The notes beneath the pieces were generated by a model. The model worked only from the letters and a program-made list of their open reading frames with translations, searched no databases and was not told the origin of the DNA. A DNA stretch of 64,000 nucleotides, from the NCBI GenBank assembly GCA_014163555.1, contig JACJGO010000005.1:1-64000 (forward strand), written 5' to 3'. The stretch is from Flavisolibacter longurius. GTDB lineage: Bacteria; Bacteroidota; Bacteroidia; Chitinophagales; Chitinophagaceae. The stretch's first letter is position 1. Each line of letters begins with the position of its first letter. The position numbers and the translations under genes are program-made. Shown piece after piece: positions 1,344 to 7,871 of this stretch.

Positions 1344-1449
1344 CTTCGTACCCGCTTCGTACCTTCTTCGGTGTTTCTTCGGATGGTCTTCGGTTGACAC
1401 CGAAGCGGTACCGAAGAGGGTACGAAGCAGCACCGAAGAACATCCGAAG
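1344..1449. repeat. 11-bp phased CTTCG/CGAAG dyad array
   Basis: CTTCG occurs at 1344, 1355, 1366, 1377 and 1388, and its complement CGAAG at 1401, 1412, 1423, 1434 and 1445. Both arms therefore have an exact 11-bp period around a dyad centre at 1396/1397. The six-base spacers differ. Each right-arm spacer is close to the reverse complement of the left-arm spacer of the same rank (TACCTT/AGGGTA, GTGTTT/CAGCAC, GATGGT/AACATC), a constant offset of 57 bp rather than a simple nested hairpin. Function is unknown. Confidence 0.9.
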
Positions 1450-1481
1450 AAAGGGGTAAACTTCCCAGGAAAAATTACGAT

Positions 1482-1582
1482 GGGCAAAACGGGGCAATTG
1501 GGGGCAAAGAGGGACGAATAAGGGCAACAGGGGGCAAGCGGGTACAAAAATGGGGAAAAGAGGACAGAAAGGGCCAAAAGGG
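1482..1582 (+). repeat. quasi-periodic G-run array, G-quadruplex-prone
   Basis: Runs of two to five G start at 1482, 1491, 1500, 1511, 1522, 1530, 1540, 1552, 1562, 1571 and 1580, about 8-12 bp apart, mostly followed by CAA or ACAA. The first four runs have loops of 6, 5 and 6 bases and satisfy the canonical G3+N1-7 rule for an intramolecular G-quadruplex. The repeat is imperfect and non-coding. It directly follows the CTTCG/CGAAG array. Confidence 0.75.
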
Positions 1583-1717
1583 TACAAACTGGCGGCAAAC
1601 ACTACCTGTCCCCACAAGGGCTGCTTATCTTGGCCAACAGGTACCTCAAAAATCCGTTCTTTGAAAAGGCTAGCCCCAAATAAATCCGGACGTTAGCTTT
1701 CAAAAATGCTGGTAATC

Positions 1718-4165
1718 CTAGAACCATTTGCCCCGGCGCTTGTCCCAAGTTGTAAAGCCCACCTTAAACTGGATAGGGTTGCTGAACTGGTTGGCCACCG
1801 AGGTGGTAACGTAAATGCCTACCTTAAATTTATCCAGGGGATTAAAGGGCGACTGGAACGCTCTTTCCACGCCAAAAAACAGTTCGGCATAACGCAGGTT
1901 CCGTTCCTGGGTAATTAAAAACCCGGTACCGGCAATTTCCCGGAGTTGCAGCTTTTTCAGCAGGGGAATTTTGTTTAGCAAAAAGCCGTTGAACTCGTGC
2001 ACCAGGTGGCCCTCGTAAAACCCTTTGATAGTATGAAAGGTAGAGTCCAGGGCCTGGAAGGAATTGTGCGGGTTCATGAACAGGAAAGGATCGCCCCGGC
2101 GCTGGAATTTGTAATCGATCAGCCTAAGGTCCTTTGTGTTTAAAAAACTCCCTGTTTTTACCGTGTACCGCGATACGCCCAGCAGCCCCATATTAATCTG
2201 CTGCTGAAGGCCTGCCTCCAGGTAGTCAAAGTCCACATCCGAAGCCAGTATGCCCGGTATGCCTTTGCGCCATTCCACGAACAGGGTTGGCCATTTCGAT
2301 CCGAGGATGATCTTTTCCAGCGGTTCTCGGCGGTATTGCTGAAACGGCGTGTACTCCAGCCGCACCTTTCCGTACAGGGCATTGTAAGGCTCAAACGGAA
2401 TGGGCTGGTTGTTGTCCAGCACATCGCCCAGCAGGCTGTCCACCAGCTTTCCGGTTTTGTAATTGCTTACCGACCGGCGCAGGGCCATGCCCAGTTCATT
2501 GCGCAGGAAAAGGCCGTTAGCCAGCTCCAGGCCATGCCCGATACCCACTTCGTTGTTCAGGTAAATGTTACTCCGCTTGATCATGTTGATGTAGGCATCG
2601 CCTTCGAAAATAAACTGGAACTCCCGCTTGGCCGTGATGGTATAATACCCCCGGTTGAAGGGGTTGTACATGCGGTTGATGTCGAAGGATCCGTTCACGT
2701 CTTTGTTGCGCAGGCCATAACTCAGGCTGGCGTTGACAAACAGGTTTTTCCGGCTGGGATAAAACTTCCCATACCCGATAGAGGCATTCAGCCGGCCGCC
2801 GCCAAAGGCAAAGGGCGAATAAAGGGAGATGAGCGGCGGAAGGTACCAGCTCCGCTCTTTCTGCCGGTTGTAAAGCGTTTGGCCAAAAAAGCCGATCTTC
2901 TTCCAGGTAATGCGGCTGATCTCCGCGGCAATGGAATCTTTATAGCGTTCCGTTTGCGTAATGGCAAAAAGCGAATCGCGGTACTGGATAAAATCAGCTT
3001 CCCGTGCCGACAGGGTCTCGCGGCGGGCTTCTTTCCAAAAGGCACTGTCGCGGTGGTAGGCCTTTTCCGTGGTCAGGCTCACCTCATTGCCAAAATGCCG
3101 GCGGGGAAAGGTTTTATTCAGTTCATAATCGGAATAATTTACAACCGTCTGGCCCGTAATGCGCTTGTTGCGGCCATCGGCATAATAGGTGAATTTCTGC
3201 TGGTTCAGCATCCAGGCCCTGTTGTCGAAATAATCGTACTGCTGTTCCACTTCGAAAAATGAGTGCTCCTGCAGGTGGTATTGCGGAAAGCGAAACCGGA
3301 CATACAGAATGTTCCAGGTGCTGTCCGAAACCGTCAGTTCGCCTTCCACCGTGGCGTTGGTGAGGGCCCGGGGTTTTACCGAAATGGTGTACAGCTTTTC
3401 GCGGCCGCGGCGTTCAATGCGGATGGTTTTAAATTTATAGGCAATCAACCCTGTATTACTTACCGGCGATACAAATGGGGTAGGGGAGATACGCGGAACC
3501 GAAATAAGGTTGTTGTAAAAATTAAAATCCCCATCGGTGGTGGTGGTATAAAACAATAGCTTATCGGGACCACTTGTTTTTACACCCAGCCGCTCTTCTT
3601 TGATACGGTTGGCGGCATCCTTGTCCACCTTCAACAGAATTTCTTTGATGACGGAAACGGTGGGTTCGGCCGTTTCCTGGCCTTTCCCGGTAAACGTAGA
3701 GTCCTGCTGCACTGCCTTTATATAGGCTTTGTAAGAATAGGATTTCACCACGCTGCTCACACTGTCTTTTTTCTCCACCAGGGTTTTCATGATCTCGTCG
3801 GCGCGGTCCTTCAGTTTAACTTTGATCACCACCTCCGACAGCGTGGTCTTTTCTTCGTCGTCCTGGAGAATAACGTTCTGCAGAATCTCCTCGTTCACCA
3901 CCACAGGAAGAATAGTGGTTTTGTAACCCACCATGCTCACTACAATCTCATAGGTGCCTTTGGAAATAAACAGCTCGTAGCTGCCGTCATCTTTGGAAAG
4001 CGTTCCCACGGAGGAGGTTTTCAGGTGTACGCTAACGTTAGCCAGCGGTTCCATTTTGCTGTTGGTGATCTTTCCATAAACCTTTACAACCTGGGCCTGC
4101 AGGCCGGTAGCAAAAGCCAGGGATAAAAAAAGGAGAAAAAGCGCTTTGCGCAGATACGGTGGCAT
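1718..4165 (-). CDS. DUF5686 / CarboxypepD_reg-like outer-membrane protein
   Basis: The 815-residue protein has a signal peptide ending around LQAQ, then a carboxypeptidase-regulatory-like Ig fold (about residues 25-110; GKITNSKMEPLANVSV, SVGTLSKDDGSYEL, VSMVGYKT), then a long DUF5686 region. The C-terminal half has alternating beta-strand patterns with frequent aromatic residues and ends in WDKRRGKWF, which fits an outer-membrane beta-barrel with a terminal aromatic residue. Proteins of this family are common in Bacteroidota outer membranes and resemble TonB-dependent transporters without a plug; the substrate is unknown. It is a single gene, with no SusD partner nearby. Confidence 0.85.
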   Translation of the reverse strand: MPPYLRKALFLLFLSLAFATGLQAQVVKVYGKITNSKMEPLANVSVHLKTSSVGTLSKDDGSYELFISKGTYEIVVSMVGYKTTILPVVVNEEILQNVILQDDEEKTTLSEVVIKVKLKDRADEIMKTLVEKKDSVSSVVKSYSYKAYIKAVQQDSTFTGKGQETAEPTVSVIKEILLKVDKDAANRIKEERLGVKTSGPDKLLFYTTTTDGDFNFYNNLISVPRISPTPFVSPVSNTGLIAYKFKTIRIERRGREKLYTISVKPRALTNATVEGELTVSDSTWNILYVRFRFPQYHLQEHSFFEVEQQYDYFDNRAWMLNQQKFTYYADGRNKRITGQTVVNYSDYELNKTFPRRHFGNEVSLTTEKAYHRDSAFWKEARRETLSAREADFIQYRDSLFAITQTERYKDSIAAEISRITWKKIGFFGQTLYNRQKERSWYLPPLISLYSPFAFGGGRLNASIGYGKFYPSRKNLFVNASLSYGLRNKDVNGSFDINRMYNPFNRGYYTITAKREFQFIFEGDAYINMIKRSNIYLNNEVGIGHGLELANGLFLRNELGMALRRSVSNYKTGKLVDSLLGDVLDNNQPIPFEPYNALYGKVRLEYTPFQQYRREPLEKIILGSKWPTLFVEWRKGIPGILASDVDFDYLEAGLQQQINMGLLGVSRYTVKTGSFLNTKDLRLIDYKFQRRGDPFLFMNPHNSFQALDSTFHTIKGFYEGHLVHEFNGFLLNKIPLLKKLQLREIAGTGFLITQERNLRYAELFFGVERAFQSPFNPLDKFKVGIYVTTSVANQFSNPIQFKVGFTTWDKRRGKWF

Positions 4166-6878: not shown

Positions 6879-7871
6879 CTATAAGGAGGGGTTGATCAGC
6901 TTTTGAAAGTCTGCGTCCTTCACGGTCAGCAGGCCGGCTTTGGGCAGGCGCCTTGTCAGATCTTTCCAGTTTTTATCTTTCAGGTAAATGCGCTTCAGCA
7001 TGGCAGCAGCTTTGGTGACCTCTCCCTTGTTGGCCAGGGTAATGGCGGTCCAGTATTGCATCTCCAGGTTTTGCGGAAACATTTTCATGGCAGTGTTGTA
7101 GGCTTCCATTGCTTTTGGCATGTCGCCTTTTTCCACGGCCACATCACCGGCATTCATATGCTCGTAGGCAACCTGAAGGGTGTACAACCGGCGCAGCTCT
7201 TTCAGGGGCAGGGCAGCATCCTCCACCCGCAGGTCCACCAGCCGTTCATTCCAGGGTTCCCCTTTTGACCGTGTCGGAACCACGAGCAAGGCAGCCGATT
7301 GTTTGCCGCGAATATCGCCACCGCTGCTTTCGGCGGCTTCCAAGGCCAGCAACATGCGGTCGGCCAGCGGCCTGCCCTTGCTTTTTTCAAAGGCAGCGGC
7401 CATGGCGGCAGGCACTTTATTGGTCAGCATCATATTGGCCTGCACGGAAAACTGGGCGCCTTTTAAATGCCCTGCAAATTCAATACAGCCTTTTCCCGTG
7501 TGTACGGCAACGTTACCCATGGTATCCACAATGGCCACCTGCCGCACCTCCCGCCCTTCGTCGGTGGCCAGCAGGCTGTCCAATGCCTGCTGTGCCGTGA
7601 GGCCGCTTTTCAACAGGGCCAATCCGCGAGGCCCGAAGGATTTGTTGGTGAACGATTGTGTGGCAATGGCTCCCACACCGGCTTCGGCCCAGCTAACTGC
7701 TGTACCCACCGAAAACCAGTGGCTTTGCACCGCTACCGCCAGCTCCCCGGTTTCGGGGTCCCTGGCTACAATGGAATAGGTATGCGCCAGGGGCGATTCT
7801 GTTTGGTAAACCTGTGCCTGCAGGCCTATTTGAACAAATCCCAGGAGGGAGAGGAAGAGGATCTTTTTCAT
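6879..7871 (-). CDS. secreted DUF1028 protein with C-terminal TPR-like helices
   Basis: The 330-residue protein has a signal peptide (MKKILFLSLLGFVQIGLQAQ) followed by a DUF1028 domain. Recognisable pieces are THTYSIVARDPETGELAVAVQSHWFSVG-type N-terminal strands, AGVGAIATQSFTN and GLTAQQALDSLLATDEGREVRQVAIVD. DUF1028 resembles the N-terminal-nucleophile hydrolase fold, but its substrate is unknown. Residues about 235-310 form TPR-like helices (AYEHMNAGDVAVEKGDMPKA, AYNTAMKMFP), a common C-terminal extension in secreted Bacteroidota members. It is single-gene and convergent with the DoxX gene. Confidence 0.87.
   Translation of the reverse strand: MKKILFLSLLGFVQIGLQAQVYQTESPLAHTYSIVARDPETGELAVAVQSHWFSVGTAVSWAEAGVGAIATQSFTNKSFGPRGLALLKSGLTAQQALDSLLATDEGREVRQVAIVDTMGNVAVHTGKGCIEFAGHLKGAQFSVQANMMLTNKVPAAMAAAFEKSKGRPLADRMLLALEAAESSGGDIRGKQSAALLVVPTRSKGEPWNERLVDLRVEDAALPLKELRRLYTLQVAYEHMNAGDVAVEKGDMPKAMEAYNTAMKMFPQNLEMQYWTAITLANKGEVTKAAAMLKRIYLKDKNWKDLTRRLPKAGLLTVKDADFQKLINPSL

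Follow-up and report, generated by a model that had tools for sequence, protein, structure and literature searches.

BrickBuilt of Porphyromonas gingivalis is a dispersed intergenic minisatellite/MITE whose 23-nt units are flanked by a leader and a tail (PMC4596501). ParR of plasmid R1 requires two or more 11-bp repeats and, on parC, seeds a solenoid-shaped segrosome (PMC9426499). REP/REPIN elements, which are mobilised by RAYT, are short dispersed intergenic palindromes, some of them containing CTTCG. REP/REPIN elements are not known to have 11-bp phasing.

Here we describe a non-coding array of ten CTTCG cores that extends over ~106 bp in Flavisolibacter longurius. The array lies in a 64-kb stretch of DNA (the window), which is the start of a 320-kb contig of the 5.66-Mb genome and begins at the contig end. 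Arrays of this kind resemble BrickBuilt in being dispersed, intergenic, non-coding tandem units of Bacteroidota with a leader, a tail and a variable unit number. BrickBuilt units are 23 nt long with no spacers between them, and its TIRs are close to those of IS5-family elements, whereas the arrays described here have 11-bp units with an invariant core, free spacers and mirrored arms. The window array has a period of 11, and dispersed copies are found in three relatives (genomes G005, G007 and G015) and not in its own genome. With parC the array shares a series of 11-bp repeats, one per helical turn, here in exact 11-bp steps; in parC the repeats are direct and sit beside parM on a plasmid, whereas the present array is mirrored and chromosomal. 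parC/ParR is proof that such platforms exist, and the resemblance would be one of working rather than of membership. The arrays also differ from REP/RAYT systems in that Y1_Tnp is absent from two array-rich genomes.

Results

A mirrored array of CTTCG cores in the window

The left arm has CTTCG starting at positions 1344, 1355, 1366, 1377 and 1388, with TACCCG, TACCTT, GTGTTT and GATGGT as spacers; CGAAG starts at positions 1401, 1412, 1423, 1434 and 1445 in the right arm, where the spacers are CGGTAC, AGGGTA, CAGCAC and AACATC (Table 1). The symmetry axis falls at 1396/1397, and the CpG-to-CpG distance is 10 bp across the centre as against 11 bp within the arms. This layout of five CTTCG and five CGAAG in 11-bp steps around one axis, first described in a sequence-only reading, was confirmed by the sequence, by shuffles and by a lag scan. 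CTTCGN6CTTCG occurs eight times in the window, all within the array; 100 dinucleotide shuffles averaged 0.08 occurrences and never had more than 1. The lag-11 self-match reaches 0.62 at 1342-1451, which is the window maximum at this lag (mean 0.246, sd 0.047). The longest run of one pentamer is five in the array; the best run of any pentamer at a spacing of 7-30 was three in each of five Markov resamples. The 50 core letters are all unchanged, whereas 21 of the 48 letters in the spacers differ from the majority letter of their column. The probability of unchanged cores at the spacer rate is ~3e-13, a figure from a biased test, since it was the cores that drew attention to the array. The spacers are dissimilar among themselves, with a mean pairwise identity of 0.38.

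Table 1. Features of the array and its flanks in the window.
Feature	Position	Strand	Evidence
Tyrosine recombinase gene, 3' remnant, 58 codons	1079..1252	-	PF00589 E 1.6e-9; homologue identity 93%
Left arm, five CTTCG cores, exact 11-bp steps	1344..1392	+	Sequence, shuffles, lag scan
Centre, 8 nt, GTTGACAC	1393..1400		Sequence; gap comparison among dyads
Right arm, five CGAAG (minus-strand CTTCG), exact 11-bp steps	1401..1449	-	Sequence, shuffles
Looser block, 10-11-nt period, GGGCAAA / GGGTACAAA type units	1477..1610 (about)		Lag scan, frame view

The neighbours of the array in the window are the recombinase remnant and long ORFs at 142-915 and 1718-4165. The 'recombinase debris' remarked on beside the array is real, as the PF00589 match and the homologue show: the remnant encodes the last 58 residues of the protein, and a 446-aa protein from a sister genome has 93% identity to it over residues 389-446. 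Because the remnant is still so close to an intact homologue, loss of the gene looks recent. The remnant is cut at the RHxxR region. It lies ~90 bp from the array. A clear 11-bp array was found at one of 11 other loci of this recombinase family, ~1.1 kb off (1.8-3.2 kb fetched at each), and the family is present in 18 of the 18 genus genomes searched, the CTTCG pattern in only some. To judge from these sequences, the proximity of the remnant is probably incidental and not part of the system. The looser block has a lag-10 match of 0.59 at 1482-1590 and a lag-11 match of 0.48 at 1491-1600, and by eye it resembles the outer units beside the arrays of relatives, with a period closer to 10 than to 11.

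Arrays of the same period in other genomes

The window array is the sole place in its own genome (G000) where CTTCGN6CTTCGN6CTTCG occurs. The same three-core pattern is present in 8 of the 98 genomes searched, the own genome included. Matches exceeded those of a reversed control in G005 (67 vs 4), G007 (50 vs 2) and G015 (24 vs 0); G006, G011, G012 and G040 gave one or two matches each, a level reachable by the control alone. The control fired elsewhere too, with two hits against one match in G012 and 17 against none in G031. Four CTTCG at 11-bp steps recur in at least 120 stretches in named genomes; sorted by hand among the matches listed, 85 of these are from Bacteroidota and 35 from elsewhere, and several of the 35 are plain tandem repeats by eye. 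Viral contigs contained the four-CTTCG pattern in 47 stretches and the gap-8 dyad pattern in one. A 60-kb viral contig (L366) carries a TTCG/CGAA dyad at 7301-7360, with 3 + 6 cores and a gap of 8, and has phage-like frames nearby.

Sampling of 600 kb of G015 irrespective of the motif gave 11 lag-11 hits and 8 lag-22 hits, which are unequal in conviction. The lag scan gave a single weak lag-11 hit in 352 kb of G000 and none in G003 or G012, with 100 kb scanned of each. No similar DNA was found in the plasmids searched, and when the whole window region was compared by DNA similarity with 18 genus genomes, the own copy alone was convincing, other matches being at E 0.03 or worse. The search of the host genome and its relatives for period-11 CTTCG-N6 arrays that the sequence-only reading had proposed found such arrays in relatives; its suggestion of an amplifying repeat family holds for G005, G007 and G015, where the arrays are dispersed, and not for the own genome, where the array is single-copy. 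We recognised no paper on 11-bp arrays in Bacteroidota in a literature search. The arrays form a genuine class that has apparently been little noticed so far.

Mirrored arms and helical phase

The arrays follow a common plan, in which TTCG cores in exact 11-bp phase and free spacers make up one arm or a mirrored pair. Among 28 distinct dyads that have three or more cores in each arm, the window's being one of them, the central gap is 8 in 19, 9 in five, and 11, 18, 29 and 30 in one each. The gap is 7-9 modulo 11 in 27 of these 28 dyads and in 44 of 50 with at least two cores per arm, counts in which the dyads are not independent, several coming from one genome and L152/L153 being copies fetched by the dyad pattern (gap 3-16). 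With such a gap the CpG steps stay in helical phase where the strand flips, and both arms therefore share one phase. Five further genomes of the phylum have dyads; four of them fit the gap rule (8, 19, 18 and 29), the exception being G688 with a gap of 5. Strict dyads are uncommon. With the window's dyad counted in, a pattern of two cores per arm and a gap of 3-16 was matched in 2 of 294 genomes of the family, and one of three cores per arm and a gap of 1-30 in 6 of 395 genomes of the phylum. By eye the arrays of G005 and G007 are one-armed.

The exact 11-bp period claimed for the window holds in the arrays of relatives as well. A variable-gap search of G015 with CTTCGN{3,9}CTTCGN{3,9}CTTCG gave 29 matches, of which 24 had both gaps of 6 and the other five had gaps of 6 and 5; in most other genomes the matches were few, mixed in spacing and no more numerous than in the reversed control. 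CTTCG pairs in random stretches of G015 numbered four at 11 bp, three at 10 and two at 12. CTTCG repeats of other periods were also seen, 13 bp (CTTCGGGCCGACA) being favoured in G020 and 7 bp (CTTCGTA) occurring in G010.

Beyond the CTTCG block, arrays often carry on in register with different units, which by eye are CCGTACNNNAG-like in G005, TCATANNNNAC-like in G007 and TACCCTTTTCC-like in G015. A pyrimidine-purine step at the CpG phase is present in 0.71 of 160 outer units of G005 and in 0.45 of 60 of G015, and G005 has an equally strong step (0.79) two bases from the CpG phase. A general pyrimidine-purine rule was rejected; it fails in 85 Bacteroidota loci, in which, once CG is left out, TA/CA/TG are near expectation (ratios 1.0-1.6).

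Spacer pairing and predicted folds

Spacers of equal rank in the window resemble each other's complements, as had been claimed: 17 of 24 positions match when spacers are paired by rank, as against 5 of 24 in hairpin register, and the rank pairing has the top score of the 24 possible pairings. The crossing helices proposed on this ground did not carry over to other arrays. Across 26 dyads (window included), the identity out of seven positions was 3.89 for same-rank pairs (71 pairs), 3.76 for hairpin pairs (71) and 3.63 for other pairs (84). Spacers elsewhere do not pair by rank, which is how the suggested test of co-variation between equal-rank spacers came out, and rank pairing with crossing helices was rejected, having no support outside the window copy. 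Judged by the refuting condition set in the sequence-only reading, random spacers and a random period in other copies, its spacer claim fails and its period claim stands. The rank match in the window may be an oddity of one copy, due to chance. Compensatory pairing of spacers across the dyad was likewise not found in these 26 dyads, and the absence of general spacer pairing rules against a hairpin as the general structure.

The predicted RNA fold of the window array is an ordinary nested, shifted hairpin with z = -5.74, and none of 200 shuffles was equally stable. In 900-1900, Rfam gave seven matches at E up to 1, all below the gathering score. Near-perfect hairpins, whole or central, are seen in rumen Bacteroidales (L041, L095 and L129), and palindromic centres of the form GGAAAAA...TTTTTCC in L060, L085 and L108; the loci of Chryseobacterium and Cloacibacterium have palindromic centres. 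Some arrays are near-perfect hairpins by default, because their spacers are near-identical.

Genomic neighbours

Simple ORF calls place the arrays between genes at 37 loci of G015 and G005; at L174 and L193 a short frame also crosses the array. As raw counts, 13 of these loci lie between divergent genes, 21 between tandem genes and two between convergent genes, with one undecided. A comparison of neighbouring ORFs singled out DUF6266, which is present in 5 of the 198 genomes searched at order level and in 25 of the 395 searched at phylum level. Lag-11 matches of at least 0.55 within 500 bp of DUF6266 genes were found upstream at 8 of 24 loci and downstream at 1 of 24, the 24 being those of 35 for which a script found the start, with L159, L289, L292 and L297 probably on the wrong ORF. 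The loci with upstream arrays were drawn from L155, L160, L280-L307 and others.

A profile of our own built from nine sequences found DUF6266-like frames at eight places among 250 array loci (many redundant), with the array on the upstream side; at L101 the open frame extends back through the array, and at L060 there is a broken remnant with a weak match (E 0.001). Two loci with DUF6266-like frames and arrays, L061 and L112, are from Chloroflexi. The frames in L014 and L061 gave no Pfam match, and that in L112 was recognised by our own profile alone. The DUF6266 profile had no match in G005 and G007, the two most array-rich genomes. DUF6266 was rejected as the cognate binder, as it is a neighbour of arrays and yet absent from these two genomes. 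Its predicted model, from three sequences, is poor (mean pLDDT 46.6). In viral contigs 235 stretches fit the DUF6266 peptide pattern and none was confirmed, and a literature search found no paper on DUF6266.

Mobility and other repeat families

The 20 copies fetched from G005 have 4 to 8 CTTCG-type units and a common tail with a mean identity of 0.90 over 60 nt (19 compared). Two loci of G270 (L212/L213), ~234 kb apart, have in common only an array of ~230 bp, which is in opposite orientation and has unrelated flanks; in one copy the central 126 bp runs the other way relative to the arms. On the sequences compared, each array seems to be moved or copied as a unit, and internal flips seem to be possible. 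Y1_Tnp had no matches in G005, G007 and G040 and is present in G000, G015 and G270. Since neither the Y1 transposase nor DUF6266 was found in G005 or G007, neither is needed for the arrays.

Degenerate arrays of other periods, chiefly 7 bp, are common in array-bearing genomes, the lag-7 counts of G012 being inflated by runs of N. By eye, 7-bp arrays of CATTCAC and TCACGTC type (L243-L245, L260-L263) directly adjoin 11-bp arrays in G007. A second dispersed family in G015 consists of GTACCTCTTCT-like units with a common flank, GTAGGTAAGTCCGTACCAACTGCACAGA (L263, L268, L316, L329, L330 and L334).

Discussion

The sequences show an exact phase, invariant cores, free spacers and a centre that keeps the phase, and they show an intergenic position and a spread as a unit, each in two relatives. 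Taken together, the invariant cores, free spacers, single phase and phase-keeping centre are most simply read as a platform for an oligomerising protein. We therefore tentatively favour, while allowing that it may well be wrong, the reading that the array is a helically phased multi-site platform for a putative DNA-binding protein, belonging to a dispersed MITE/minisatellite-like family of Bacteroidota. Each CTTCG (half-site core TTCG/CGAA) would be the contact for one subunit. With all the cores on roughly one face of the helix, the subunits could bind cooperatively side by side and would bend or wrap the DNA, like ParR on plasmid parC. The mirrored centre would let two oligomers meet. At chromosomal sites, binding might organise the DNA locally or control a promoter downstream. 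Of the helically phased binding array suggested at the outset, the phasing is supported; its binding we infer from sequence. The arrays upstream of DUF6266 and DUF6266-like genes, the gaps of the G015 matches, the gene orientations at the 37 loci and the pyrimidine-purine steps in outer units of G005 and G015 would be in keeping with binding. Counted against it are the failure of a general pyrimidine-purine rule, the equally strong second step in G005, the mixed spacing in most other genomes of the variable-gap search, the one-armed arrays of G005 and G007, the rarity of dyads, the arrays of other periods and the absence of DUF6266 from G005 and G007; the pair counts in random G015 stretches and the reversed-control matches weigh slightly in the same direction. 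The relaxed helical turn is 10.5 bp, and 11 bp is slightly over it, so that the phase would drift along a long arm, a further point against binding.

The main rival, a plausible one that we are nonetheless inclined to doubt, is a functionless degenerate minisatellite of 11-bp units on MITE-like elements, in which the period would reflect nothing more than the length duplicated, in units that drift. The G005 copies, with their conserved tail and varying unit number, would be expected of it, as would the G270 pair, which is one array between unrelated flanks, the heptamer and 13-bp arrays within the same family and the degenerate arrays of other periods in array-bearing genomes. BrickBuilt, a 23-nt minisatellite inside a MITE, offers a published parallel (PMC4596501). 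What slippage would not be expected to produce is invariant cores among near-random spacers, mirrored arms and a gap that keeps the phase in several families. Structured RNA or a cruciform, with a long hairpin serving as terminator, attenuator or ssDNA signal, would account for the stable predicted fold and for the near-perfect hairpins and palindromic centres of the six numbered loci above. This is improbable, as hairpin-register spacers agree at 3.76 positions of seven against 3.63 for other pairs, no Rfam family reached its gathering score, genes converge around only 2 of 37 arrays and central gaps are for the most part those that preserve helical phase. How the arms are phased should not matter to a hairpin; it would matter to a protein on one face of the duplex.

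Could the array instead be a recombination or attachment site of the tyrosine recombinase, with the remnant as its trace? The remnant is close by and the central part of one G270 array is reversed with respect to its arms. An 8-bp centre between inverted arms is reminiscent of FRT/loxP-type cores. We consider such a site very improbable, because only 1 of 11 other loci of the recombinase family has a clear array, because the family is in every genus genome searched and the CTTCG pattern in only some, and because the window has the 58-codon remnant alone where a site might be expected beside an intact gene. Least credible is a mobilised REP-like element of a Y1 (RAYT) transposase. CTTCG-containing palindromes are REP features and two loci (L042 and L179) mix both kinds by eye; Y1_Tnp is absent, however, from G005 and G007, the most array-rich genomes found.

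Beyond the platform for a putative binding protein, the sequences permit a wider proposal, which we regard as unlikely in its full extent: a mobile non-coding family of chromosomal sites in Bacteroidota, with one TTCG per turn, that would be read by a putative wrapping or polymerising protein, would commonly mark or drive DUF6266 genes and would be centromere-like or nucleoid-organising. Bacteroidota are major bacteria of soil and gut, yet the literature searched says little about the repeats between their genes. The signature reported here, TTCG every 11 bp and sometimes mirrored about 8 bp, is simple to search for and recurs in several Bacteroidota families. It precedes genes of the uncharacterised DUF6266 family, on which it gives a first handle, and the array is a ready bait for the putative binding protein.
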